From NCBI RefSeq assembly GCF_041431415.1, contig NZ_CP107845.1, positions 6,324,001-6,388,000 on the forward strand: 64,000 nt of DNA, written 5' to 3'. Below are positions 31,913 through 46,342 of this stretch, piece after piece (positions within the stretch are counted from its first letter, which is position 1; every line of letters starts with the position of its first letter). The translations under genes were made by a program, and so were the position numbers. The notes beneath the pieces are model-generated. The model was not told where the DNA came from. It ran no database searches and worked only from the letters and a program-made list of their open reading frames with translations. This DNA comes from Streptomyces sp. NBC_00513 (GTDB taxonomy: Bacteria; Actinomycetota; Actinomycetes; Streptomycetales; Streptomycetaceae).

Positions 31913-32512
31913 CTACCAGCCCGCGGCGTCCCCGGTCAGCTCGCGGATCGCGGGCCGGGCAGCGTCGAGCACGGTCATGAACCACGCCGAGAACGGCGCC
32001 TCGGCATGCCGCTTCACCAACTCGTCGGCGGTGACGAACGCCGTCTCCCCGACCTCTTCCGGATCGGGCCGCAGCTCAGCCTGGGCGAGTCCCACGAACA
32101 GGTGGTTGTACTCCTGCTCCACCAGACCCGACGCGGGGTCGGGGTGGTTGTAGCGCACCGTTCCCGCCTCGGCGAGCAGCGAGGGCGACAGCCCCAACTC
32201 CTCGTGGGTGCGCCGGGCGGCGGCCGCGAACGGCGACTCCCCGGGGTAGGGATGACCGCAGCAGGTGTTCGACCAGACGCCGGGGGAGTGGTACTTCCCC
32301 AGGGCCCGCCGCTGCAGCAGCAGCCGCCCCTGCTCGTCGAAGAGGAACACCGAGAACGCGCGGTGCAACAGACCGGGGGCCTGGTGGGCGGAGAGCTTCT
32401 CCGCCGTGCCGATGGTGTTGCCGGACTCGTCGACCAGTTCGAGCATGATCGCTTCTTGGATCCCGGTGCCGGTGGACGCGCTGTTCGCGGCGGTGGCTGG
32501 TGTGGTCGGCAT
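31913..32512 (-). CDS. idi: Isopentenyl-diphosphate delta-isomerase (type I)
   Basis: A 199-residue Nudix-fold enzyme; ATG 32512 is preceded by AAGGA, whereas ATG 32518 has its purine stretch too close. Conserved blocks: LHRAFSVFLFDEQGRLLLQR, YHSPGVWSNTCCGHPYPGE (the Cys-containing metal/active site), the Nudix-like RRTHEELGL, and YNHLFVGL. It interconverts IPP and DMAPP, supplying starter units for prenyl synthases. The hopanoid operon 9 kb away uses such precursors, although a functional link is inference. Confidence 0.95.
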   Translation of the reverse strand: MPTTPATAANSASTGTGIQEAIMLELVDESGNTIGTAEKLSAHQAPGLLHRAFSVFLFDEQGRLLLQRRALGKYHSPGVWSNTCCGHPYPGESPFAAAARRTHEELGLSPSLLAEAGTVRYNHPDPASGLVEQEYNHLFVGLAQAELRPDPEEVGETAFVTADELVKRHAEAPFSAWFMTVLDAARPAIRELTGDAAGW

Positions 32513-32671
32513 ACCCATCCTTCGCTTCGGACTTCGGCCTTCAAGTCTGCCGTACAAAAGCGGCTTGTCCCCACTTCGAACATCAGCGCACGTCCGCCCC
32601 CCGTCGCATGCTAGGCGGGCGACGGGGGGCGGATCACTCGGGCCCCGGCCGGACCGGGCCGGGCCGCCGCG

Positions 32672-34136: not shown

Positions 34137-34406
34137 CAACCCACCTCTTTCTCGTCCGGTTCCGGTGCGGGACGTGTGCGCGAAGGTCGTACACGTCTGC
34201 GAGAAGCCTAACAGTCACGCGGTTTGTGATCCCCGAGCGTTCTCGTCGATGATGATCGCCACGGGGCCTCCCAGCCCGGGAACATTCGGCTTGTCGGAGC
34301 GCAAACGGGTGGTGAACCCCCGCTTCCATTCATCCGATAGCCTCTGCCGACGTGCCGCCGCCCCACGCGGCGGCCGTCCCGTGTTCGCTGCAAGGAGTGG
34401 GTTCGA

Positions 34407-36188
34407 CTGCCGACCGTCATCCTCACCGGCCTGCCGGTCCCCGGATCGCCGCTCGCCGACGAGCTGCGCACGTTGGGCTTCGACGTCCGCTCCGTCACCA
34501 GGCCCGAGGACACCGCCACCGCGCTGGCCGACGTACCGACCGAACAGCGGGTGGCCGTCGTCGACAGCGCGTTCGTCGGCCACGTGCACGCCCTGCGGCT
34601 CGCGCTCACCGACCCGCGCTTCGACGCCTGCGCCGTGACCGGCGCCTTCGCCGTCCAGGCCGCTGCCCGCGCCGCCCTGGACCTGGCCGCGGCCCTCCCC
34701 GAGAACGGCGCCGGCCCCTACCCCGACCGGCTCGCCGCCGCCGTCGAGGCCGCCGGGATCCCCGTGCAGCGGCCCGAGCTCGGCACCCTGGTCGCCGCCG
34801 TCCCCGCCGCCGGCCCGGAGCGCGCGAGCGCCGTCGCCGCCGTCGCCGCCGTGGACGACGAGGCCGTGCGGCTGCGGACCGCCGTGAAGTCCCGCGACGG
34901 GTTCTTCACCACCTTCTTCATCAGCCCGTACTCGCGCTACGTCGCCCGCTGGTGCGCGCGCCGCGGCCTGACCCCCAACCAGGTCACCACCGCCTCGCTG
35001 CTCACCGCGCTCGTCGCGGCCGGCTGCGCGGCCACCGGTGACCGCTGGGGCTACGTCGCGGCCGGTGTCCTCCTCCTCCTCTCCTTCGTACTGGACTGCG
35101 CCGACGGGCAGCTCGCCCGCTACTCCCTGCAGTACTCGACGCTGGGCGCCTGGCTCGACGCGACCTTCGACCGCGCGAAGGAGTACTCCTTCTACGCGGG
35201 CCTCGCGCTCGGCGCGGCCAGGAACGGCGACGACGTCTGGGCCCTGGCCCTCGGCGCGATGATCCTGATGACCTGCCGGCACATCGTCGACTTCTCCTTC
35301 AACGAGGCGAACCACGACGCCACGGCGAACACGAGCCCCACCGCCGCCCTCTCCGACCGGCTCGACAGCGTCGGCTGGACGGTCTGGGTCCGCCGGATGA
35401 TCATCCTGCCGATCGGCGAACGGTGGGCGATGATCGCCGTGCTGACCGCCGTCACCACCCCCCGGATCGTCTTCTACGCCCTGCTCATCGGCTGCGCCTT
35501 CGGCGCGCTGTACACCACCGCGGGCCGCGTGCTGCGCTCGCTGACCCGCAAGGCGAAGCGCACCGACCGCGCCGCCCAGGCGCTGGCCGACCTCGCCGAC
35601 TCGGGCCCGATCGCGACCCTCACCGGCCGGATCGTCGGCCGGATGGCGCCCGGCGCCGGCATCGCCGCCGCCCTCGTCGGCTCGGTCGCGCTGCTGTGGA
35701 CGGCCTGGGCGTACGAGTTCGGTGCCCGCCAGGTCGTCATCGCCGCCGTCTTCTACGCGGTCCTCGCCGGCGCCGCCGTCGCCCGCCCCCTCAAGGGCGC
35801 CCTCGACTGGCTCGTCCCGCCCGTCTTCCGGGCCGCCGAGTACACCACCGTATTGATCCTCGCGGCCAAGGCGGACGTCCCGGGAGCCCTCCCGGCGGCA
35901 TTCGGACTGGTCGCGGCGGTCGCCTACCATCACTACGACACGGTCTACCGCATCCGCGGTGGCACCGGGGCGCCCCCGCACTGGCTGGTGCGGACGATCG
36001 GCGGGCACGAGGGCCGGGTGCTGCTCACCGCGGCACTGGCCGCCGTCCTGGCCGAGCGCCCCGCGGACTTCCCCGTCGCGCTCACGGTCACGGCCGTGTT
36101 CGTGGCACTCGTGGTGCTCTCGGAGAGCATCCGGTTCTGGGTCTCCTCCGGAGCACCCGCCGTACATGACGAAGGAGAACCAGCATGA
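34407..36188 (+). CDS. CDP-alcohol phosphatidyltransferase with N-terminal extension domain
   Basis: A ~593-residue protein. No ATG/GTG/TTG lies between the in-frame TAG at 34338 and TTG 34473; CTG 34407 has AAGGAG nine bases upstream and gives LPTVILTGLPVPGSPLADEL, so CTG is proposed. Residues 1 to ~170 form an alpha/beta domain of unknown role. The transferase motif DxxDGxxARx8Gx3Dx3D is complete at about 230-255 (DCADGQLARY, LGAWLDATFD). Around it and after it lie about eight to ten hydrophobic segments. It should move a phospho-alcohol from a CDP-alcohol to an acceptor. First gene of a seven-gene run; its stop overlaps the next start (ATGA). Confidence 0.85.
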   Translation: MPTVILTGLPVPGSPLADELRTLGFDVRSVTRPEDTATALADVPTEQRVAVVDSAFVGHVHALRLALTDPRFDACAVTGAFAVQAAARAALDLAAALPENGAGPYPDRLAAAVEAAGIPVQRPELGTLVAAVPAAGPERASAVAAVAAVDDEAVRLRTAVKSRDGFFTTFFISPYSRYVARWCARRGLTPNQVTTASLLTALVAAGCAATGDRWGYVAAGVLLLLSFVLDCADGQLARYSLQYSTLGAWLDATFDRAKEYSFYAGLALGAARNGDDVWALALGAMILMTCRHIVDFSFNEANHDATANTSPTAALSDRLDSVGWTVWVRRMIILPIGERWAMIAVLTAVTTPRIVFYALLIGCAFGALYTTAGRVLRSLTRKAKRTDRAAQALADLADSGPIATLTGRIVGRMAPGAGIAAALVGSVALLWTAWAYEFGARQVVIAAVFYAVLAGAAVARPLKGALDWLVPPVFRAAEYTTVLILAAKADVPGALPAAFGLVAAVAYHHYDTVYRIRGGTGAPPHWLVRTIGGHEGRVLLTAALAAVLAERPADFPVALTVTAVFVALVVLSESIRFWVSSGAPAVHDEGEPA

Positions 36189-36937
36189 TCGGCCTTGTAC
36201 TCGCTGCCGGTGCCGGACGCCGTCTGCGTCCCTACACCGACACCCTGCCCAAGGCCCTCGTGCCCGTCGGTCCCGAGGGGGACGAGGAGAGCCTGACCGT
36301 CCTCGACCTCACCCTCGGCAACTTCGCCGAGGTCGGACTGACCGAGGTCGCGATCGTCGTCGGCTACCGCAAGGAAGCCGTGTACGAGCGCCGCGAGGCC
36401 CTGGAGGCCAAGTACGGCGTCAAGATCACGCTGATCGACAACGACAAGGCCGAGGAGTGGAACAACGCCTACTCCCTGTGGTGCGCGCGTGACGTCCTCA
36501 AGCGCGGCGTGATCCTCGCCAACGGCGACACCGTCCACCCGGTCTCCGTCGAGAAGACCCTGCTGGCCGCCCGAGGCCAGGGCCAGAAGATCATCCTCGC
36601 CCTCGACACGGTCAAGCAGCTGGCCGACGAGGAGATGAAGGTCATCACCGCCGACGGCCAGGGCGTGCGCAGGATCACCAAGCTGATGGAGCCGTCGGAG
36701 GCGACCGGCGAGTACATCGGCGTCACCCTGATCGAGCCGGAAGCCGCCGAGGAACTGGCGCGGGCGCTCCAGACCACCTTCGAGCGCGACCCCGACCTCT
36801 ACTACGAGGACGGCTACCAGCAGCTCGTCAACGACGGCTTCACCATCGACGTGGCCCCCATCGGCGACGTCAAGTGGGTCGAGATCGACAACCACGACGA
36901 CCTCGCCAAGGGCCGGACCATCGCATGCCAGTACTGA
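36185..36937 (+). CDS. Nucleotidyltransferase (phosphocholine/sugar-phosphate cytidylyltransferase-like)
   Basis: A 250-residue protein from ATG 36185. The N-terminal NTP-binding loop MIGLVLAAGAGRRLRPYTDT with LPKALVPVG is the hallmark of GlmU/LicC-type nucleotidyltransferases; VILANGDTVHPV carries the metal Asp, and WVEIDNHDDLAKG the C-terminal metal site. Placed between a CDP-alcohol transferase and a glycerol-1-phosphate-dehydrogenase-like gene, it most likely makes a CDP-activated alcohol phosphate from CTP. Which phosphate is used (glycerol-1-phosphate, inositol or another polyol) is not visible. Start and stop both overlap neighbours. Confidence 0.85.
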   Translation: MIGLVLAAGAGRRLRPYTDTLPKALVPVGPEGDEESLTVLDLTLGNFAEVGLTEVAIVVGYRKEAVYERREALEAKYGVKITLIDNDKAEEWNNAYSLWCARDVLKRGVILANGDTVHPVSVEKTLLAARGQGQKIILALDTVKQLADEEMKVITADGQGVRRITKLMEPSEATGEYIGVTLIEPEAAEELARALQTTFERDPDLYYEDGYQQLVNDGFTIDVAPIGDVKWVEIDNHDDLAKGRTIACQY

Positions 36938-37986
36938 CGCGGCTGATCCCCTCGCCCGTCGTCGTCGACATCAGCTGCGGCGCGATGGACGACCTGGCCG
37001 GCCTCCTGGCCGACCAGCGCGTCTCCGCGTCCGGCAAGCTTGCGATCGCGATCAGCGGGGGATCCGGCCAGGTGCTGCGCGCCAAGCTGGAGCCCGTCCT
37101 GCCGCACGCCGACTGGTACCCGGTCGTCGACGGCACCATCGACTCGGCGGTCAAGCTGGCCGACGACATAAAGGGCCGCCGCTACGACGCGGTCGTCGGA
37201 CTGGGCGGCGGCAAGATCATCGACGTGGCGAAGTACGCCGCGGCGCGGGTCGGGCTGCCCATGGTGGCCGTCGCCACCAACCTCTCCCACGACGGCATCT
37301 GCTCGCCGGTGTCCATCCTGGACAACGACAACGGCCGCGGTTCCTACGGCGTTCCCATGCCGATCGCGATGGTCATCGACCTCGACGTGATCAAGGACGC
37401 CCCGGCCCGCTTCGTCCGCGCGGGCATCGGCGACGCGATCTCCAACATCTCGGCCGTCGCCGACTGGGAGCTCTCGCACCGCCTCAACGGCGAGCCCGTC
37501 GACGGCCTGGCCGCCGCCATGGCCCGCACCGCCGGCGAGTCCGTGCTGCGCCACCCCGGCACGGTGGGCGACGACGAGTTCCTGACCGTGCTCTCGGAGG
37601 CCCTCGTGCTCTCCGGCATCGCCATGTCGATCAGCGGGGACACCCGCCCGTCGTCCGGCGCCTGCCACGAGATCAGCCACGCCTTCGACCTGCTCTACCC
37701 GGGACGCTCCGCGCTCCACGGCGAGCAGGTCGGCATCGGGGCGGCCTTCGCCATGCACCTGCGGGGAGCCAAGGAGCACTCCGCGCTCTTCGTCGAGGTG
37801 CTGCGCCGCCACGAGCTGCCCGTGCTGCCCGAGGAGATCGGGTTCAGCGTGGACGAGTTCGTCGCGGCCGTCGAGTACGCCCCCCAGACCCGACCTGGAC
37901 GCTTCACCATCCTGGAGCACCTCAACCTGTCCGCAGCCGAGATCAGGGATGCTTACGCCGACTATGTCCAAACCATCCGTAGCTGA
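36925..37986 (+). CDS. sn-Glycerol-1-phosphate dehydrogenase-like (EgsA/AraM) enzyme
   Basis: A 353-residue protein from ATG 36925, overlapping the preceding stop by 13 bases. It has the iron/zinc alcohol dehydrogenase fold: VVGLGGGKIIDVAKYAAARV (NAD loop), TNLSHDGICSPVSI, GDAISNISAV (metal Asp), SGACHEISHAFDLL and LHGEQVGIG (metal His residues). These blocks match archaeal G1PDH and Bacillus AraM/EgsA, which reduce dihydroxyacetone phosphate to sn-glycerol-1-phosphate with NAD(P)H. 2-deoxy-scyllo-inosose-type relatives share the fold but not these blocks. The product would be the substrate for the neighbouring cytidylyltransferase. Confidence 0.85.
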   Translation: MPVLTRLIPSPVVVDISCGAMDDLAGLLADQRVSASGKLAIAISGGSGQVLRAKLEPVLPHADWYPVVDGTIDSAVKLADDIKGRRYDAVVGLGGGKIIDVAKYAAARVGLPMVAVATNLSHDGICSPVSILDNDNGRGSYGVPMPIAMVIDLDVIKDAPARFVRAGIGDAISNISAVADWELSHRLNGEPVDGLAAAMARTAGESVLRHPGTVGDDEFLTVLSEALVLSGIAMSISGDTRPSSGACHEISHAFDLLYPGRSALHGEQVGIGAAFAMHLRGAKEHSALFVEVLRRHELPVLPEEIGFSVDEFVAAVEYAPQTRPGRFTILEHLNLSAAEIRDAYADYVQTIRS

Positions 37987-38743
37987 ACTCCGGCCCGTCG
38001 TTCACCCGCCGGGCGTCAAGGATCGACGCAGCGGCGAGCACTGGGGCGGACGCCTCTACATGCGCGAGATCTCCCTGCGCATCACCCGCGTCCTGGTCTC
38101 CACCAAGGTCACGCCCAACCAGCTGACCTACGTGATGACCGTGGCCGGAGTCCTCGCGGCCCCGGCCCTGCTGATCCCGGGCATCTGGGGCGCCGTCCTC
38201 GGCGTGATCATGGTCCAGCTCTACCTGCTGCTCGACTGCGTCGACGGCGAGGTCGCCCGCTGGAAGAAGCAGTTCTCGCTCTCCGGGGTGTACCTGGACC
38301 GCGTCGGCGCCTACCTGTGCGACGCCGCGGTGCTGGTCGGCTTCGGCCTGCGCGCCTCGGACCTGTGGGGCAGCGGGCGGATCGACTGGCTGTGGGCGTT
38401 CCTGGGCACCCTGGCGGCGCTCGGCGCGATCCTGATCAAGGCCGAGACCGATCTGGTCGGCGTCGCCCGGCACCAGGTCGGCAAGGCGCCCGTCAAGGAG
38501 GAGGCGTCGGAACCGCGCTCGTCCGGCATGGCGCTCGCGCGCCGGGCCGCCGCCGCGCTCAAGTTCCACCGGCTGATCCTGGGCATCGAGGCCTCGCTGC
38601 TCATCCTGCTGCTGGCCGTCGTCGACCAGGTCCGCGGCGACCTGTTCTACACCCGGCTCGGCGTCGCCGTGCTGGCCGGCATCGCCCTGCTGCAGACCCT
38701 GCTGCACCTGGTGTCGGTCCTGGCCTCCAGCAGGCTCAAGTGA
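37964..38743 (+). CDS. Second CDP-alcohol phosphatidyltransferase-like membrane protein, last motif Asp replaced
   Basis: A 259-residue protein from ATG 37964, overlapping the dehydrogenase gene by 23 bases. The entry helix VTPNQLTYVMTVAGVLAAPA and the motif DCVDGEVARWKKQFSLSGVY, then LDRVGAYLCD, follow the family pattern, but the fourth Asp of DxxDGxxARx8Gx3Dx3D, regarded as the catalytic base, is Ala (LDRVGA). An Asp four residues on might substitute. About five to six hydrophobic segments are present. It may use a different geometry, be a regulatory partner of the first transferase, or be inactive. Stop overlaps the next GTG. Confidence 0.8.
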   Translation: MSKPSVAELRPVVHPPGVKDRRSGEHWGGRLYMREISLRITRVLVSTKVTPNQLTYVMTVAGVLAAPALLIPGIWGAVLGVIMVQLYLLLDCVDGEVARWKKQFSLSGVYLDRVGAYLCDAAVLVGFGLRASDLWGSGRIDWLWAFLGTLAALGAILIKAETDLVGVARHQVGKAPVKEEASEPRSSGMALARRAAAALKFHRLILGIEASLLILLLAVVDQVRGDLFYTRLGVAVLAGIALLQTLLHLVSVLASSRLK

Positions 38744-39624
38744 CGACGCCGATGCGGCTGGGCGCCGTGATCATCACCATGGGCAACCGTCCCGACGAGC
38801 TCAAGGCGCTCCTCGACTCGGTGGCGCGCCAGGACGGCGCCCCCGTCGAGGTCGTCGTCGTCGGCCAGGGCGTCAAGGTCACCGGCCTGCCCGAGGGGGT
38901 CCGTACGGTCGACCTGCCCGAGAACCTGGGCATCCCCGGCGGCCGCAACGTCGGCATCGAGGCCTTCGGCCCCGGTGGCACCGACGTGGACGCCCTGCTC
39001 TTCCTGGACGACGACGGGCTGCTGGAACGCACCGACACCGCCGAACTGTGCCGGCAGGCCTTCGCCGAGGACCCCTCGCTCGGGATCGTCAGCTTCCGGA
39101 TCGCCGATCCGGACACCGGCGAGACCCAGCGGCGCCACGTGCCGCGGCTGCGCGCCTCCGACCCCATGCGTTCCTCCCGCGTGACCACCTTCCTGGGCGG
39201 CGCCAACGCCGTCCGCACGAGGGTGTTCGAGCAGGTCGGAGCGCTGCCGGGGGAGTTCTTCTACGCCCACGAGGAGACCGACCTGGCCTGGCGGGCACTC
39301 GACGCCGGGTGGCGGATCGACTACCGCGCGGACATGGTGCTGCTGCACCCGACGACGGCTCCGTCCCGGCACGCGGTCTACCACCGTATGGTGGCTCGTA
39401 ACCGGGTGTGGCTGGCCCGCCGGAATCTGCCCGCCCTCCTGGTACCGCTCTACCTGGGCGTCTGGATGGCCCTGACGCTCCTGCGCAAGCCGTCGGGACC
39501 GGCCCTCAAGGCCTGGTTCGGCGGGTTCAAGGAGGGCTGGACCACCCCGTGTGGTCCCAGACGCCCCATGAAGTGGCGTACGGTCTGGCGGCTGACCCGG
39601 CTCGGCCGACCACCTGTCATCTGA
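38740..39624 (+). CDS. Family 2 glycosyltransferase
   Basis: A 294-residue protein; GTG 38740 overlaps the preceding TGA (GTGA). The GT-A fold is visible: LGAVIITMGNRPDELKALLD at the N-terminus, VDLPENLGIPGGRNVGIEAF, the metal-binding LLFLDDDGLL (Asp-x-Asp type), FLGGANAVRTRVFEQVG, and the acceptor-side FFYAHEETDLAWRALDAGWR. The C-terminal LVPLYLGVWMALTLLRKPSG is membrane-associating. It probably adds a sugar to a lipid- or polymer-linked intermediate of the surrounding pathway before export by the ABC transporter encoded next. Confidence 0.88.
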   Translation: MTTPMRLGAVIITMGNRPDELKALLDSVARQDGAPVEVVVVGQGVKVTGLPEGVRTVDLPENLGIPGGRNVGIEAFGPGGTDVDALLFLDDDGLLERTDTAELCRQAFAEDPSLGIVSFRIADPDTGETQRRHVPRLRASDPMRSSRVTTFLGGANAVRTRVFEQVGALPGEFFYAHEETDLAWRALDAGWRIDYRADMVLLHPTTAPSRHAVYHRMVARNRVWLARRNLPALLVPLYLGVWMALTLLRKPSGPALKAWFGGFKEGWTTPCGPRRPMKWRTVWRLTRLGRPPVI

Positions 39625-39722
39625 CAAGCTCGCGTCTGGGAGCATGGGGCCTGATCAAGGGCCCCGTACTCCGGGTCCGATCCCCCCTTCTGCCGCATCT
39701 TGAAGACGGAAAGTTTCAACTT

Positions 39723-40652
39723 GTGAGTGACACAACCCACGACGGCGCCCTCGCCACGAGCAAGCCGCCGTCCGAAGACGCGGGGCTCGCCCCCGCGGAG
39801 CTCGCCAGGAAGTACGGCCTGTCCGTCAGCGGAGCCCGGCCCGGCCTGGGCGAGTACGTGCGGCAGCTCTGGGGCCGACGTCACTTCATCATGGCCTTCT
39901 CCCGGGCCAAGCTGGTGGCGCAGTACAGCCAGGCGAAGCTCGGGCAGATCTGGCAGGTGGCGACCCCGCTGCTGAACGCCCTGGTCTACTACCTGATTTT
40001 CGGCCTGATCCTGAACGCGGGCCGGGGCATGGAGAAGGGCGTTTACATCCCCTTCCTGGTGATGGGCATCTTCGTCTTCACCTTCACCCAGAACTCGGTG
40101 ATGGCGGGTGTCCGCGCGATCCCCGGCAACCTCGGTCTGGTCCGCGCCCTGCACTTCCCGCGCGCCTCGCTCCCCATCTCCTTCTCGATGCAGCAGCTCC
40201 AGCAGCTGATGTACTCGATGATCGTGGTGGTCATCGTCGCGGTGGCCTTCGGCAACTACCCGCAGTTGTCGTGGCTGCTGGTCATCCCGGCGCTGGCGCT
40301 GCAGTTCGTCTTCAACACCGGGCTGGCGCTGGTCTTCGCGCGGATGGGGTCCAAGACCCCCGACCTCGCGCAGCTGATGCCGTTCATCACGCGCACGTGG
40401 ATGTACGCCTCGGGTGTCATGTTCTCGATCAACGAGATGCTGAAGGACAAGCCGGCCTGGATCGCGGACGTCCTCCAGTGGAACCCCGCGGCCATCTACA
40501 TGGACCTCGTCCGCTTCGCGCTGATCGACGGCTACGGCCCGGAAAACCTGCCGCCGCACGTCTGGGGCTTCGCGGTCGGCTGGGCCGTTCTCACCGGCAT
40601 CGGCGGCTTCGTGTACTTCTGGAAGGCTGAGGAGCGTTACGGCCGTGGCTGA
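39723..40652 (+). CDS. ABC-2 type polysaccharide/teichoic-acid export permease (TagG/Wzm-like)
   Basis: A 309-residue protein from GTG 39723, 98 bases after the glycosyltransferase. A cytosolic N-terminus of ~60 residues leads into GRRHFIMAFSRAKLVAQYSQ and the LGQIWQVATPLLNALVYYLI helix typical of the ABC-2 family. Six hydrophobic segments follow, including GVYIPFLVMGIFVFTF, SMIVVVIVAVAF, WLLVIPALALQFVF and AVLTGIGGFVYF. Relatives export teichoic acids or O-antigens assembled on a lipid carrier. It forms a transporter with the overlapping ATPase gene. Confidence 0.9.
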   Translation: MSDTTHDGALATSKPPSEDAGLAPAELARKYGLSVSGARPGLGEYVRQLWGRRHFIMAFSRAKLVAQYSQAKLGQIWQVATPLLNALVYYLIFGLILNAGRGMEKGVYIPFLVMGIFVFTFTQNSVMAGVRAIPGNLGLVRALHFPRASLPISFSMQQLQQLMYSMIVVVIVAVAFGNYPQLSWLLVIPALALQFVFNTGLALVFARMGSKTPDLAQLMPFITRTWMYASGVMFSINEMLKDKPAWIADVLQWNPAAIYMDLVRFALIDGYGPENLPPHVWGFAVGWAVLTGIGGFVYFWKAEERYGRG

Positions 40653-41427
40653 GATCAAGAAGGGGCACGTCCCCACCGTCATCGCCGACGAGGTCCACAT
40701 CGTCTACCGGGTCAACACCGGCAGCTCCGGCAGGGGCAGCGCCACGGCGGCGCTGAGCAAGATACTCCGCCGGGGCAAGGGCGACTCCCCGGGCGTGCGC
40801 CGGGTCCACGCCGTACGCGGCGTCTCCTTCACCGCGTACCGCGGCGAGGCCATCGGGGTCATCGGCTCCAACGGTTCCGGCAAGTCCACCCTGCTGCGCG
40901 CCATCGCGGGGCTGCTGCCCTGCGAGTCCGGCAAGGTCTACACGGACGGCCAGCCCTCGCTGCTGGGCGTCAACGCCGCACTCATGAACGACCTGACCGG
41001 CGAACGCAACGTCGTCCTCGGCGGTCTGGCGATGGGCATGACGCGCGAGCAGATCAGGGAGCGCTACGACGACATCGTCGACTTCTCCGGGATCAACGAG
41101 AAGGGCGACTTCATCTCCCTGCCGATGCGCACGTACTCCTCGGGCATGGCGGCACGCCTGCGTTTCTCCATCGCCGCGGCCAAGGACCACGACGTCCTGA
41201 TGATCGACGAGGCGCTGGCGACCGGTGACCGCAAGTTCCAGGTCCGCTCGGAAGCCCGTATTCGCGAGCTGCGCGAGACGGCCGGAACGGTGTTCCTGGT
41301 GAGTCACAACAACAAGTCCATCCGCGACACCTGCGACCGCGTGCTGTGGTTGGAGAAGGGTGAGCTGCTGATGGACGGGCCCACCGAGGAAGTCGTCTCG
41401 GCATATGAGAAGGCCACCAGTCACTGA
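40645..41427 (+). CDS. ABC transporter ATPase for polysaccharide/teichoic acid export (TagH/Wzt-like)
   Basis: A 260-residue ATPase from GTG 40645, overlapping the permease stop by eight bases. Walker A is GVIGSNGSGKSTLLRAIAGL (about residues 71-90); the signature is the exporter-specific RTYSSGMAARLRFSIA instead of LSGGQ; Walker B is DVLMIDEALATGD; and the switch region is VFLVSHNNKSI. The Y-S-S-G-M variant and DEALATGD are diagnostic for Wzt/TagH-type exporters. There is no C-terminal carbohydrate-binding extension. Last gene of the run, followed by a strong terminator. Confidence 0.93.
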   Translation: MAEIKKGHVPTVIADEVHIVYRVNTGSSGRGSATAALSKILRRGKGDSPGVRRVHAVRGVSFTAYRGEAIGVIGSNGSGKSTLLRAIAGLLPCESGKVYTDGQPSLLGVNAALMNDLTGERNVVLGGLAMGMTREQIRERYDDIVDFSGINEKGDFISLPMRTYSSGMAARLRFSIAAAKDHDVLMIDEALATGDRKFQVRSEARIRELRETAGTVFLVSHNNKSIRDTCDRVLWLEKGELLMDGPTEEVVSAYEKATSH

Positions 41428-41718: not shown

Positions 41719-41784
41719 ATGGCTACGGGAATTCTCCGGCCCCCAAACACTGTGGCCGTCCCCGCCCCGGGCGGCGGGCGGTGA
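41719..41784 (+). CDS. Possible 21-aa leader peptide coupled to hpnC
   Basis: ATG 41719 opens a 21-codon ORF (MATGILRPPNTVAVPAPGGG plus R) whose TGA overlaps the GTG start of hpnC (GTGA at 41781-41784). GGGAG lies about ten bases upstream of its ATG, while hpnC itself has no usable Shine-Dalgarno sequence. The arrangement suggests that ribosomes reach hpnC by reinitiation from this peptide. Confidence 0.4.
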   Translation: MATGILRPPNTVAVPAPGGGR

Positions 41785-42728
41785 GCCCCGGGCACGGTAT
41801 CCGTGGTCGACGGCACCCGGTCCCCGCGACGTCCGACGCCCACACGAGCCTCACGCTCGACAAGGCCCGGACGGAGAACTTCCCCGTCGCCCCCGCCTTC
41901 CTGCCCCGCGCCTGGCGCGACGGGCTGACGGCGGTGTACGGCTACGCCCGACTCGTCGACGACATCGGCGACGGCGACCTCGCCCCCGGCGGCCACGACG
42001 CCGTCCTGCTCGGCCTCGACCCGGAGGCCTCGGACGACCGGCTCGCCATGCTCGACGCCTTCGAGGCCGACCTGAAGCGCGTCTTCGCGGGCGCCGACGG
42101 CCCCCCGCGGCACCCCCTGCTGCGGGCCCTGCGGCCCGTGGTCCGCGCGCACGACCTCACCCCCGAGCCCTTCCTCGGTCTGATCGAGGCCAACCGTCAG
42201 GACCAACGGGTCGCCCGCTACGAGACGTACGGGGACCTGCTCGCCTACTGCGAGCTGTCCGCGAACCCCGTCGGCCGCCTCGTGCTCGCCCTCACCGGGA
42301 CGGCGACCCCCGAGCGGATCCGACGCTCCGACGCCGTCTGCACCGCACTCCAGATCGCCGAGCACCTCCAGGACGTCGCCGAGGACCTCGGCCGCGACCG
42401 GATCTACCTCCCGGCCGAGGACATGCGCCGCTTCCACGTGTCCGAGGTCGACCTCAAGGCCCCCACCGCAGGAGCGTCCGTACGCTCCCTCATCGCATTC
42501 GAAACCGTGCGCGCCCGGGACCTCCTGAATGAAGGCACCCCCCTCGTGGGTAGCGTCCACGGCAGGCTCCGACTGCTGCTCGCGGGGTTCGTGGGGGGCG
42601 GGCGCGCCGCCCTGCGAGCCGTCACCGACGCCGGTTTCGACGTACTTCCCGGCCCGCCCAAGCCCACCGGGAGCGGCCTGCTCCGCGAGGTGGCCGCCGT
42701 CCTGCGCACAGCGCCGAGAAAGGGGTGA
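41781..42728 (+). CDS. hpnC: Hydroxysqualene synthase HpnC
   Basis: A 315-residue trans-isoprenyl synthase from GTG 41781. NFPVAPAFLPRAWRDGLTAV and the first Asp-rich motif YARLVDDIGDGDL identify the HpnC branch; the second motif region reads LQIAEHLQDVAEDLGRDRIY. With HpnD and HpnE it forms the three-step bacterial squalene route: HpnD makes presqualene diphosphate from two farnesyl diphosphates, HpnC converts it to hydroxysqualene, HpnE reduces this to squalene. First gene of the hopanoid operon; its stop overlaps the hpnD start (GTGA). Confidence 0.93.
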   Translation: MSPGHGIRGRRHPVPATSDAHTSLTLDKARTENFPVAPAFLPRAWRDGLTAVYGYARLVDDIGDGDLAPGGHDAVLLGLDPEASDDRLAMLDAFEADLKRVFAGADGPPRHPLLRALRPVVRAHDLTPEPFLGLIEANRQDQRVARYETYGDLLAYCELSANPVGRLVLALTGTATPERIRRSDAVCTALQIAEHLQDVAEDLGRDRIYLPAEDMRRFHVSEVDLKAPTAGASVRSLIAFETVRARDLLNEGTPLVGSVHGRLRLLLAGFVGGGRAALRAVTDAGFDVLPGPPKPTGSGLLREVAAVLRTAPRKG

Positions 42729-43684
42729 GCCCCAACGTGGAGGGCCCCACACACGCGTCCACACCGTCCGCGCCGGTCCAGGCCGCCTACGGCTACTGCG
42801 AGGCAGTCACCGGCTCGCAGGCCCGCAACTTCGCGTACGGCATCAGGCTGCTGCCCAACGACAAGCGGCAGGCCATGTCCGCGCTGTACGCGTTCTCGCG
42901 CCGCGTCGACGACATCGGCGACGGCACGCTGGCGCCCGACGCCAAGCTGGTCCGGTTGGAGGAGACCCGCGCCCTCCTGGGCCGGATCCGCGCCGAGGAG
43001 ATCGACGAGGACGACACCGACCCCGTCGCCGTCGCCCTCGCCCACGCCGCGCGCCGCTTCCCGATCCCCCTGGGCGGACTCGACGAACTCATCGACGGCG
43101 TCCTGATGGACGTGCGCGGCGAGAGCTACGAGACCTGGGACGACCTCAAGGTCTACTGCCGCTGCGTCGCGGGCGCCATCGGACGCCTCTCGCTCGGCGT
43201 GTTCGGCACCGCCCCCGGCGCGCACGACGCCGAGCGGGCCGGCGAGTACGCCGACACCCTCGGCCTCGCCCTGCAACTCACCAACATCCTCAGGGACGTT
43301 CGCGAGGACGCCGGCAACGGACGCACCTACCTCCCGGCCGAGGACCTCGCCAAGTTCGGCTGCTCCGAGGGCTTCCGCAGCGAGCGGATGTCCGCCGGCG
43401 CCGACTTCGCCGGCCTCGTCCACCACGAAGTCCGGCGCGCCCGCGCCCTGTTCGTCGAGGGCTACCGACTGCTGCCCATGCTCGACCGGCGCAGCGGTGC
43501 CTGCGTCGCCGCCATGGCCGGCATCTACCGCCGCCTCCTCGACCGCATCGAGCGCGAGCCCGACGCCGTGCTGCGCGGACGCGTCTCGCTGCCCACGCAC
43601 GAGAAGGCGTACGTCGCCGTACGCGGCCTCTCCGGCCTCGACGCCCGGACCGTCTCCCGGCAGAGCACCAGGAGGCGGCCTTGA
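42725..43684 (+). CDS. hpnD: Presqualene diphosphate synthase HpnD
   Basis: A 319-residue enzyme from GTG 42725 overlapping the hpnC stop. ARNFAYGIRLLPNDKRQAMS, ALYAFSRRVDDIGDG (first Asp-rich motif), IDGVLMDVRGESYETWDDL and LALQLTNILRDVREDAGNGR (second Asp-rich motif, DxxED) match HpnD/phytoene-synthase-like enzymes. It condenses two farnesyl diphosphates head-to-head to presqualene diphosphate. It lies between hpnC and a small ORF that bridges to hpnE by overlapping stop-start codons. Confidence 0.94.
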   Translation: MSPNVEGPTHASTPSAPVQAAYGYCEAVTGSQARNFAYGIRLLPNDKRQAMSALYAFSRRVDDIGDGTLAPDAKLVRLEETRALLGRIRAEEIDEDDTDPVAVALAHAARRFPIPLGGLDELIDGVLMDVRGESYETWDDLKVYCRCVAGAIGRLSLGVFGTAPGAHDAERAGEYADTLGLALQLTNILRDVREDAGNGRTYLPAEDLAKFGCSEGFRSERMSAGADFAGLVHHEVRRARALFVEGYRLLPMLDRRSGACVAAMAGIYRRLLDRIEREPDAVLRGRVSLPTHEKAYVAVRGLSGLDARTVSRQSTRRRP

Positions 43685-43812
43685 CGGCGCGGGCCGGCCT
43701 CGACCGCGACGGCCGCGCCCGGACCGGGGCAACCCCGCCGCCGGCCGGGGCGTCTGACGAGGTAATGGACCGGACCAATGGGGCCCCGAAGGTCGACGAG
43801 GAGGACGCATGA
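43681..43812 (+). CDS. Small ORF between hpnD and hpnE (43 aa)
   Basis: TTG 43681 overlaps the hpnD stop (TTGA) and the ORF's TGA overlaps the hpnE ATG (ATGA), so it could link translation of the two genes. It encodes LTARAGLDRDGRARTGATPP, then PAGASDEVMDRTNGAPKVDEEDA: a basic first half and acidic second half, with no membrane segment or domain. I recall a small gene of unknown function at this place in the S. coelicolor cluster (DUF6380-like), but similarity cannot be confirmed here. It may simply be the hpnE leader region. Confidence 0.4.
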   Translation: MTARAGLDRDGRARTGATPPPAGASDEVMDRTNGAPKVDEEDA

Positions 43813-45182
43813 CCGCCAACCACGCGGTGGTCGTCGGCGGAGGCCTGGCCGGTGTCACCACCGCCCTGGAACTCGCCGACGCCGGCATGCGGGTGACCCT
43901 CCTGGAGAGCCGCCCCCGACTCGGCGGACTCGCCTTCTCCTTCAAGCGCGGCGAGCTGACCGTGGACAACGGCCAGCACGTCTACCTGCGTTGCTGCACC
44001 GCCTACCGGTGGTTCCTCGACCGCGTCGACGGCGCCGCCCTCGCCCCCCTCCAGAACCGGCTCGACGTACCCGTACTGGACGTCGCGCACCCCCGGGGGC
44101 CGCGCCTGGGCAGGCTGCGCCGCAGCGCCCTGCCCGTGCCCCTGCACCTGGCCTCCTCCCTGGCCCGCTACCCGCACCTCACCCTCGCCGAACGGGCGAG
44201 CGTCGGACGCGCCGCCCTCGCGCTGCGCCGCCTCGACCCCGCCGACCCGGCGCTCGACGGCGTGGACTTCGCGACCTGGCTCGGCCGTCACGGCCAATCC
44301 CCGCGCACCATCGAGGCGTTGTGGGACCTCGTCGGCATCGCCACCCTCAACGCCACCGCCGACCAGTCGTCGTTGGGGCTGGCCGCCAAGGTCTTCAAGA
44401 CCGGCCTGCTGTCCGAGAACGGCGCCGCCGACATCGGCTGGGCCCGCGTCCCGCTCGGCGACCTCCACGACGTCCTCGCCCGCAAGGCGCTCGACGCGGC
44501 CGGCGTGCGCACCGAGCTGCGGACCCGCGTCACCTGCCTGTCGCGGCTGGAGTCCGGCAGTTGGCGGGTCGACACCGAGAGCGAATCGCTCGACGCGGAC
44601 ACCGTGGTCCTGGCCGTCCCCCAACGCGAGGCGCACGCGTTGTTGCCGCCCGGGGCCCTCGCCGACCCCGACAAGCTCCTCGACATCGCCACGGCCCCCA
44701 TCCTCAACGTCCACGTCGTCTACGACCGCAAGGTCCTCAGGCAGCCCTTCTTCGCCGCGCTCGGCACCCCGGTCCAATGGGTCTTCGACCGCACCGACGC
44801 CTCCGGGCTCACCGACGGCGGCCAGTACCTCGCCCTGTCCCAGTCGGTGGCCCAGGACGACATCGACGAACCCGTCTCGGTCCTGCGGGCCAAGTACCTG
44901 CCCGAGTTGGAGCGACTGCTGCCCGCCGCGCGCGGCGCGAAGGTACGGGACTTCTTCGTCACCCGGGAGCGGACCGCGACCTTCGCCCCCACCCCCGGAG
45001 TCGGCCGGCTGCGACCCGGTGCCCGGACCGACACGCCGGGACTCTTTCTCGCCGGTGCGTGGACCGCCACCGGTTGGCCCGCGACCATGGAGAGCGCCGT
45101 CCGAAGCGGACTGGCCGCGGCACACGCCGCGCTCGCCGGTCTCGACCGCCGGCGTGAACACCCGCTGCGGGAGGCGGTATGA
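43809..45182 (+). CDS. hpnE: Hydroxysqualene dehydroxylase HpnE (FAD-dependent)
   Basis: A 457-residue flavoprotein from ATG 43809. The FAD-binding loop AVVVGGGLAGVTTALELADA and MRVTLLESRPRLGGLAFSFK open the protein; VDNGQHVYLRCC follows; and the C-terminal FLAGAWTATGWPATMESAVR is the second FAD contact seen in phytoene-desaturase-like amine oxidases. It removes the hydroxyl of hydroxysqualene with NADPH/FAD to yield squalene for the cyclase. Overlaps both neighbours by four bases. Confidence 0.94.
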   Translation: MTANHAVVVGGGLAGVTTALELADAGMRVTLLESRPRLGGLAFSFKRGELTVDNGQHVYLRCCTAYRWFLDRVDGAALAPLQNRLDVPVLDVAHPRGPRLGRLRRSALPVPLHLASSLARYPHLTLAERASVGRAALALRRLDPADPALDGVDFATWLGRHGQSPRTIEALWDLVGIATLNATADQSSLGLAAKVFKTGLLSENGAADIGWARVPLGDLHDVLARKALDAAGVRTELRTRVTCLSRLESGSWRVDTESESLDADTVVLAVPQREAHALLPPGALADPDKLLDIATAPILNVHVVYDRKVLRQPFFAALGTPVQWVFDRTDASGLTDGGQYLALSQSVAQDDIDEPVSVLRAKYLPELERLLPAARGAKVRDFFVTRERTATFAPTPGVGRLRPGARTDTPGLFLAGAWTATGWPATMESAVRSGLAAAHAALAGLDRRREHPLREAV

Positions 45183-46342
45183 CGAGCATCGACATCACCG
45201 CCGCAGCGCGCGCAGCACGTACACGTACAGGAACCAGAGGAGAGCCAGTGAACCCGGGGAATCCGGCTGTCGAGAACGCGGATGCCAGTGTGGGCACGGC
45301 CGGTGGGGAGAAGGCGGACACCGTCGCCCTGCTGGAGCGTGGCCGCGCACTGTCCACGCCCGTGCTCCGCGCCGCCGTGGAACGGCTCGCATCGCCCATG
45401 GACACCGTCGCCGCCTACCACTTCGGCTGGATCGACGCCCACGGCAACCCGGCGGACGGCGACGGGGGCAAGGCGATCCGCCCCGCCCTCGCCCTGCTCT
45501 CCGCGGAGGCCGCGGGCGCCGCGCCCGAGGTCGGCGTCCCGGGAGCCGTGGCCGTCGAACTCGTCCACAACTTCTCGCTGCTGCACGACGACCTGATGGA
45601 CGGCGACGAGCAGCGCCGACACCGCGACACCGTGTGGAAGGTGCACGGCCCGGCCCTCGCGATCCTGGTCGGCGATGCCCTCTTCGCCCTCGCCAACGAG
45701 GTCCTGCTGGAACTGGGCACCGTCGAGGCCGGACGCGCCACCCGCCGGTTGACCACCGCCAGCCGCAAGCTCATCGACGGCCAGGCCCAGGACATCTCGT
45801 ACGAGCACCGCGAGCGCGTCAGCGTCGAGGAGTGCCTGGAGATGGAGGGCAACAAGACCGGCGCCCTGCTCGCCTGCGCGGTCTCGATCGGCGCGGTGCT
45901 CGGCGGCGCGGACGACCGCACCGCCGACAAGCTGGAGGAGTACGGCTACCACCTCGGCCTCGCCTTCCAGGCCGTCGACGACCTGCTCGGCATCTGGGGA
46001 GACCCGGAGACCACCGGCAAGCAGACGTGGAGCGACCTGCGTCAGCGCAAGAAGTCCCTGCCGGTGGTCGCCGCCCTCGCGGCAGGTGGCCCGGCGGCCG
46101 AGGAACTCGGCGAGCTGCTCGCCGCCGACGCCAAGAGCAACGACTTCGAGAACTTCTCGGAGGAGGAGTTCGCGGCGCGCGCCGCCCTGATCGACGCGGC
46201 CGGCGGCCGTGAGTGGACCGCCGAGGAGGCGCGCCGCCAGCACACGATCGCCATCCGCGCGCTCGATGACGTCGACATGCCGCAGCGGGTACGCGAACAG
46301 CTCGTCGCCCTCGCCGACTTCGTCGTCGTGCGCAAGAGGTGA
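45179..46342 (+). CDS. Polyprenyl (farnesyl-type) diphosphate synthase
   Basis: A 387-residue protein; ATG 45179 overlaps the hpnE stop and has GGGAGG four bases upstream. GTG 45248, also with a good ribosome site (AGGAG), would drop 23 low-complexity residues. The first Asp-rich motif is NFSLLHDDLMDGDEQRR (about 133-149) and the second LAFQAVDDLLGIWGD (about 260-275). GGKAIRPALALLS precedes them. The residues before the first DDxxD determine chain length; from the pathway it should supply C15 farnesyl diphosphate to HpnD. C-terminal RVREQLVALADFVVVRKR is typical. Confidence 0.92.
   Translation: MTSIDITAAARAARTRTGTRGEPVNPGNPAVENADASVGTAGGEKADTVALLERGRALSTPVLRAAVERLASPMDTVAAYHFGWIDAHGNPADGDGGKAIRPALALLSAEAAGAAPEVGVPGAVAVELVHNFSLLHDDLMDGDEQRRHRDTVWKVHGPALAILVGDALFALANEVLLELGTVEAGRATRRLTTASRKLIDGQAQDISYEHRERVSVEECLEMEGNKTGALLACAVSIGAVLGGADDRTADKLEEYGYHLGLAFQAVDDLLGIWGDPETTGKQTWSDLRQRKKSLPVVAALAAGGPAAEELGELLAADAKSNDFENFSEEEFAARAALIDAAGGREWTAEEARRQHTIAIRALDDVDMPQRVREQLVALADFVVVRKR

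Follow-up and report, generated by a model that had tools for sequence, protein, structure and literature searches.

A Streptomyces seven-gene locus that probably makes CDP-glycerol from archaeal-type glycerol phosphate for a surface molecule

In Bacillus, wall teichoic acid (WTA) is described as containing glycerol-3-phosphate (Gro3P) and lipoteichoic acid (LTA) as containing glycerol-1-phosphate (Gro1P, hereafter G1P) (PMC7086022), the enzyme GlpQ being specific for Gro3P; for two Gram-negative capsule polymerases, use of the G1P enantiomer by TagF-type enzymes has been shown (PMC5974469). AraM, a G1P dehydrogenase (G1PDH), is presented as a Bacillales exception (PMC8262930); bacteria including Streptomyces have also been suggested to be capable of making archaeal-like lipids (PMC6431249). 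Here, we analyze a 64,000-nucleotide stretch of Streptomyces sp. NBC_00513 (the window; 6.324–6.388 Mb on contig C1 of the 8.62-Mb genome), in which seven intact plus-strand genes, P1–P7, span positions 34407–41427 and combine a G1PDH-like enzyme with a nucleotidyltransferase, two cytidine diphosphate (CDP)-alcohol transferases, a glycosyltransferase and an ATP-binding cassette (ABC) exporter. We consider it probable that these genes form a self-contained pathway that makes CDP-glycerol for a phosphodiester of the cell envelope, in which P3 and P2 would activate sn-G1P.

The locus is almost certainly the Streptomyces syntenic region crtB-tagH-tagG-araM with Clusters 14531, 14532 and 14538 (PMC13118837); the portions of that paper at hand tie the region to teichoic acid biosynthesis and secondary metabolism, and give neither a function, nor the absence of TagD, nor a product. 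An initial annotation of the window had stated that no characterised product was known, which holds for the product itself, although the region had already been listed as syntenic. Likewise, the open-licence PMC literature searched, as far as its text was available, yielded no description of CDP-glycerol made from G1P or of what the P1–P7 cluster produces.

Layout of the locus and the P3–P2 pair

The features of the locus are as follows.

34392..34397, + strand: AAGGAG ribosome-binding site ahead of the CTG start of P1 (sequence)
34407..36188, + strand: P1, CDP-alcohol phosphotransferase with an N-terminal nucleotidyltransferase-like domain and a C-terminal DUF5941, 593 aa (PF01066, PF19365)
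36185..36937, + strand: P2, nucleotidyltransferase, predicted CTP:glycerol-1-phosphate cytidylyltransferase, 250 aa (PF00483)
36925..37986, + strand: P3, glycerol-1-phosphate-dehydrogenase-like enzyme, 353 aa (NF002022, PDB 4rgq, metal ligands)
37964..38743, + strand: P4, second CDP-alcohol phosphotransferase with Ala in place of the fourth motif Asp, 259 aa (PF01066)
38740..39624, + strand: P5, GT2 glycosyltransferase (PF00535, E 5.1e-9)
39723..40652, + strand: P6, ABC-2 permease, TagG/Wzm-like (PF01061, E 6.6e-14)
40645..41427, + strand: P7, ABC ATPase, TagH/Wzt-like (NF010066)
41781..46342, + strand: neighbors of P7 on the hopanoid side, putative hpnC, hpnD, hpnE and a polyprenyl synthase

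Pfam recovered every class that the initial annotation had assigned to the seven genes (in order, CDP-OH_P_transf with DUF5941, NTP_transferase, Fe-ADH_2, CDP-OH_P_transf, Glycos_transf_2, ABC2_membrane and ABC_tran), the scan using slightly different starts for P3, P4 and P6. The first five genes are joined by overlaps, as had been noted (4 nt for P1/P2, 13 for P2/P3, 23 for P3/P4 and 4 for P4/P5), and the exporter pair, overlapping by 8 nt, follows after 98 nt. These start codons are predictions, picked from overlap and homology; P1 very likely starts at CTG 34407 and not at the TTG 22 codons downstream that appears in the mechanical list of open reading frames, and the resulting length of 593 aa is common to the annotation of many relatives.

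The gene order is conserved well beyond the window. By tblastn, on which all synteny statements here rest, P1–P7 were recovered in order from each of ten further Streptomyces loci. In every one of the 80 named relatives, the gene immediately upstream of P3 on the same strand is P2, the aligned ends being −3 to 182 nt apart; these relatives are the top 80 among at least 572 that were confirmed, and comprise Nocardioidaceae, Micromonosporaceae, Streptosporangiaceae, Thermomonosporaceae, others and one Thermoleophilaceae metagenome-assembled genome. In a separate class sample of 148 genomes, P2 adjoins P3 in 23 of the 24 non-Streptomyces genomes with a P3 ortholog. Since order is kept in all ten Streptomyces loci and the P2–P3 adjacency persists in relatives, the grouping is not a matter of chance, which bears out the earlier proposal that the dehydrogenase, nucleotidyltransferase, transferases and TagGH-like exporter form one unit. 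The exception, L014 (genome G079), has P3-P4-P5 without a detectable P2, a combination seen in no other class locus outside Streptomyces; G079 has more P3 fragments on other contigs. P3 itself is present in 101/101 sampled Streptomyces genomes, the best match per genome never falling below 521 bits, while in the class sample orthologs above 300 bits occur in 35/148 and P3-like proteins at E ≤ 0.001 in 74/148.

P3 is predicted, on sequence grounds, to reduce dihydroxyacetone phosphate to sn-G1P. Among the 183 NCBIfam models with which the P1–P7 proteins were compared, the G1PDH model NF002022 is the best for P3 by 159 bits (245.6 bits, against 86.6 bits for the best glycerol dehydrogenase model); because this score lies under the equivalog cut-off of 413, we term P3 "G1PDH-like". 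PF13685 (Fe-ADH_2) scores 102.7 bits, over its cut-off of 28. The nearest solved relatives are G1PDHs, the closest sequence match in the PDB being the G1PDH 4rgq (E 9.7e-44), and alignment to 4rgq provides the metal-ligand positions: D121, H246 and H262 (numbering of the first row), which we take to be the Asp/His/His metal ligands, are invariant across 10 aligned sequences including P3 of the window. The closest named homologs of P3 are from Streptomyces (94% identity), as are those of P1.

P2 carries PF00483, and among the matches listed by Foldseek and VIA-align its nearest folds include LicC, inositol-1-phosphate cytidylyltransferase (IPCT) and PntC, which couple CTP to small alcohol phosphates or to a phosphonate, with UDP-glucose pyrophosphorylases close behind. 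We assign P2 to the LicC/IPCT/PntC sugar-nucleotidyltransferase fold, for which use of CTP and an alcohol phosphate is predicted. The annotation of this gene as LicC/TagD-like stands in its first half only: neither TIGR01518 nor PF01467 matched P2 at E ≤ 0.01, and P2 as TagD is ruled out, the two belonging to different families.

Genomic company of P3 and P2

The distribution of TagD suggests that the P3–P2 route may stand in for it. P3 (35 genomes) and TagD (nine genomes) co-occur in 0/148 genomes of the class sample, with cut-offs for P3 (>300 bits), TagD (>100 bits) and strong PF04464, the TagF-type polymerase family (E ≤ 1e-70), that were set after viewing the lists; "TagD" here denotes >100 bits, the best score being 164.9 against the NCBIfam cut-off of 165.4, which none passes. 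At E ≤ 0.001, TIGR01518 matches 53 and PF04464 66 of the same genomes. In the nine TagD genomes, P2 matches do not exceed 22 bits, and four of these genomes are without strong PF04464. Strong PF04464 occurs in 45/148 genomes, 32 with P3, 5 with TagD and 8 with neither, corresponding to 32/35 P3 genomes versus 13/113 others, and to 21/24 versus 13/113 once Streptomyces is left out (Fisher p 1e-18 and 5e-13, both uncorrected for ancestry). One of the eight "neither" genomes, G097, has P2 at a contig end, leaving seven (G028, G029, G046, G080, G106, G116 and G138) with strong PF04464 and without TagD or P2–P3, which implies another CDP-glycerol source or another donor in these genomes. G138 encodes, roughly 3 kb from its PF04464 gene, a protein with weak similarity to P2.

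The same pattern is found outside the class sample. Strong PF04464 is present in 24 of 25 genomes selected from those behind the 80 named loci, and TIGR01518 stays below the TagD cut-off in all 25, reaching at most 45.8 bits. In Streptomyces, the TagD cut-off is passed in 0/101 genomes (TIGR01518 maximum 70.4 bits), a PF04464 match of any strength is present in 96/101, and the five genomes without one keep all seven genes. The window's own genome (G000) has a single PF04464 gene (G000:C1:2898595-2899686, E 5.3e-101); obg lies about 6 kb away, and a TarS-linker glycosyltransferase stands between the two (L132). Its TIGR01518 match at G000:C1:5338781 was rejected as TagD, scoring about 68.3–68.7 bits against 165.4, with the HldE domain model at 65.8.

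Neighborhoods outside Streptomyces add a teichoic-acid setting. Near P3 in the 80 named loci we found P4 (38), P5 (37) and P1 (36), together with the teichoic-type neighbors IspD-SDR (36), LCP ligase (34), TarL-type (16; the query protein is only weakly PF04464-like, at 30 bits) and GDPD (15). Pfam scans of 20 class outgroup neighbors include PF04464, LytR_cpsA_psr, GLF, IspD-adh_short and GDPD, and PF04464 lies beside P3 at 337 bits in L042 and 404 bits in L016. The teichoic-acid-like context foreseen from the window is thus supported by the relatives, where the genes around P3 are PF04464, ribitol-P cytidylyltransferase-SDR (IspD-SDR) and LCP ligases. In 39 of the 80 named loci (of L046–L121), mostly Micromonosporaceae by name, a P2-P3-CDP-alcohol transferase trio (CDPOHx) replaces P4-P5; a PF04464 match was found elsewhere in all 16 trio-type named genomes searched, being weak in one. 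L039 also has such a trio, with neither P4 nor P5 nearby. The unit adjoins exporter genes in two very small genomes, G067 (L027; 1.2 Mb, 76% complete) and G096 (L031; 1.0 Mb, 60% complete).

Six Streptomyces carry a second P3, namely G175, G191, G239, G249 and G259 of the 101 and G133 of the class sample. L21 and Obg adjoin this copy in 6/6 (L126–L131), and RNase E lies on the opposite side in L127, L129 and L131 (by Pfam) and in L128; no RNase E match was found in L130, and the L126 stretch starts inside P2. P2 accompanies the second P3 in four (L126, L127, L128 and L130). PF04464 matches lie within 10 kb in 4/6 (G133, G191, G239 and G259), and none was seen in the L128 and L130 stretches.

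The homology of P3 to G1PDH could instead mean that it feeds an archaeal-type ether lipid, as has been suggested for Streptomyces, a genus counted among those with species having all three archaeal lipid genes (PMC6431249, in the part available; species beyond our 101-genome sample may be meant). An enzyme of that route, PcrB/GGGPS (PF01884), was matched in 0/101 Streptomyces, the window's genome included, at E ≤ 0.001, while the control search was positive in B. subtilis and four archaea; moreover, the constant partner of P3 is the nucleotidyltransferase P2. Because PcrB/GGGPS is unmatched in these 101 genomes, we disfavor the published suggestion and rate an ether-lipid role for P3 as very unlikely.

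A second alternative assigns the cluster to hopanoids, as decorating or exporting a hopanoid-linked glycerol or sugar. The adjacency to hopanoid genes noted in the window is general in Streptomyces, where hpnC lies 0.2–3.5 kb downstream of P7 in 13 of 13 loci long enough to show it, but it did not extend to the outgroups in our synteny survey (0/104): hpn genes were found near P3 in neither the 80 named nor the 24 class outgroup loci retaining it (the flanks reached 10 kb at most and were often shorter). We judge that the hopanoid genes are not part of the P1–P7 unit, and a hopanoid function for the cluster appears remote. On the upstream side, a divergent gene at 31913–32557 of the window, presumably isopentenyl diphosphate isomerase-like, is a neighbor in many Streptomyces loci too.

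The transferases and the exporter

Both P1 and P4 belong to PF01066, in agreement with the initial annotation of two CDP-alcohol transferases; however, they are not equivalent. P1 (PF01066, E 2e-9; PF19365, the DUF5941 family, E 2.8e-91) contains DCADGQLAR-x8-GAWLDATFD, with all four Asp residues of DxxDGxxARx8GxxxDxxxD, and the fourth Asp is retained in 53/53 P1-class matches. P4 (PF01066, E 1.7e-7, 32.2 bits, over the cut-off of 22) reads DCVDGEVAR-x8-GVYLDRVGA, with Ala at the fourth position in the window; this residue is His or Ala in 79/79 P4-class matches (the window and L004–L145) and an intact Asp in 97/97 other motif matches of the same loci, in a scan that demanded the first three Asp and in which a few loci repeat one genome. 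The fourth Asp is the proposed base of CDP-alcohol transferases. P4-class proteins usually have Glu or Asp four residues past the lost Asp.

DUF5941 is a separate reading frame, between P1 and P2, in 38 of the 51 loci with a match (L023–L122); fusions with the CDP-alcohol transferase are seen in the four Streptomyces loci, L041 and L120. In the AlphaFold2 (AF2) model of P1, the CDP-OH domain together with DUF5941 appears to superpose on CPT1/CEPT1, residues outside 1–150 and 162–381 being barely tested in that superposition. This resemblance raises the alternative of a Kennedy-type lipid pathway, in which P1, as a bacterial counterpart of the eukaryotic choline/ethanolamine phosphotransferases CPT1/CEPT1, would use CDP-glycerol as donor and place glycerol-1-phosphate on diacylglycerol or a glycolipid, P6–P7 would export the phosphoglycerol lipid, and the teichoic context would be secondary. 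We regard it as unlikely: helical models inflate Z, the top Foldseek match is AF2299, with CPT1 reaching no better than E 6.4e-3 (sequence profile, E 0.005), the P6–P7 pair is like polymer exporters, and the LCP and TagF neighbors suit polymers better.

The same transferases invite a different substrate for P2, such that P2 would activate a sugar phosphate or an alcohol phosphate other than G1P, such as inositol-1-phosphate. G1P would then be the acceptor, and the product would resemble glycerophospho-inositol, in the manner of archaeal solute synthesis. Indeed, the top models for P1 and P4 are archaetidylinositol-phosphate synthase and the Thermococcales inositol-P cytidylyltransferase/DIPP synthase, and the DIPP synthase model ranks fourth for P2, after three sugar nucleotidyltransferases. 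These scores, however, are 25–62 bits against curated cut-offs of 170–580, P2–P3 also occurs beside PF04464 without P1 or P4 (L042 and the second copies), and this scheme does not predict the complementarity with TagD, which together make it, to our minds, quite improbable.

P6 and P7 form an ABC-2 permease and ABC ATPase pair, with PF01061 and PF00005 both over cut-off. P7 resembles a TagH/Wzt ATPase in its predicted function; the TagH model NF010066 is the best of the 183 (172.5 bits), and as this is under its cut-off of 320, P7 is not classed as TagH. The top model for P6 is the galactan permease NF050109 (58.7 bits against 380).

Proposed pathway and comparison with known systems

The catalytic steps, enantiomer, acceptor and product that follow are our inferences from the gene content. 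In the CDP-glycerol pathway that we favor, P3 would convert dihydroxyacetone phosphate to sn-G1P, and P2, replacing the unrelated TagD, would couple this to CTP, so that the CDP-glycerol formed would be the mirror image of the usual one. P1 would transfer glycerol-1-phosphate to an acceptor in the membrane, for which a lipid-linked sugar or a glycolipid of the diacylglycerol type is the likeliest candidate, and so build a lipid-linked unit; P4, although its catalytic Asp is lost, would take part as a divergent partner of P1 or as a second transferase. P5 would add a sugar to this unit, and P7–P6 would flip it outward. TagF-type (PF04464) polymerases elsewhere in the genome may draw on the same CDP-glycerol as further clients, and their teichoic acids would therefore carry glycerol-1-phosphate units.

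Two observations weigh against this pathway in the form in which the whole unit serves TagF polymers, a form that we rejected: the five Streptomyces without PF04464 keep the seven genes, and the polymers described for S. coelicolor are teichulosonic acid and PDP, not poly(glycerol phosphate) (PMC7831098). For these reasons we assign the universal role to the unit's own transferases, perhaps making a linkage unit or glycolipid. A more tentative, broader proposal, which we put at somewhat less than even, is that Streptomyces and related Actinomycetes use the archaeal enantiomer, activated as mirror-image CDP-glycerol, for a universal envelope component through a CPT1-like transferase composed of a CDP-alcohol domain and DUF5941; their teichoic polymers would have the handedness of LTA though made inside the cell, and the G1PDHs of this group would be envelope polymer enzymes, not archaeal-lipid relics.

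If correct, the pathway would explain the supply of CDP-glycerol in Streptomyces, where TagD over cut-off was not found in the sampled genomes, and wall polymers of opposite handedness are predicted. It would also give an Actinomycete G1P dehydrogenase a use for which archaeal-like membranes are not required, a point of relevance to the debate on the lipid divide. As deletion of tagO, the first teichoic-acid gene, is described as not achieved in S. coelicolor (PMC7300013), enzymes of a genus-wide envelope pathway are of practical interest as well.

Compared with the Bacillus TagD-TagB/TagF-TagGH route to WTA, the locus shares a predicted CDP-glycerol donor, a PF04464 polymerase in the genome, a TagGH-type exporter and, beside its relatives, LCP ligases; it differs in that P1–P7 genomes lack TagD over cut-off, with the unrelated P3–P2 pair predicted in its place, in the predicted use of sn-glycerol-1-phosphate and not sn-glycerol-3-phosphate, and in the two CDP-alcohol transferases. 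With EgsA/AraM and PcrB/GGGPS of the archaeal and Bacillus G1P ether lipids it has a G1PDH family enzyme in common, whereas Streptomyces is without a PcrB/GGGPS match (101/101) and its G1P is predicted to be activated by CTP. In IPCT-DIPPS, LicC and PntC, the fold is that of P2 and a nucleotidyltransferase is likewise paired with a CDP-alcohol transferase, whereas P2 is linked to a G1PDH-like enzyme, is unfused and has another predicted substrate. Finally, relative to CPT1/CEPT1, P1 is barely similar in sequence, carries an extra N-terminal nucleotidyltransferase-like domain and is split into two genes in many relatives.

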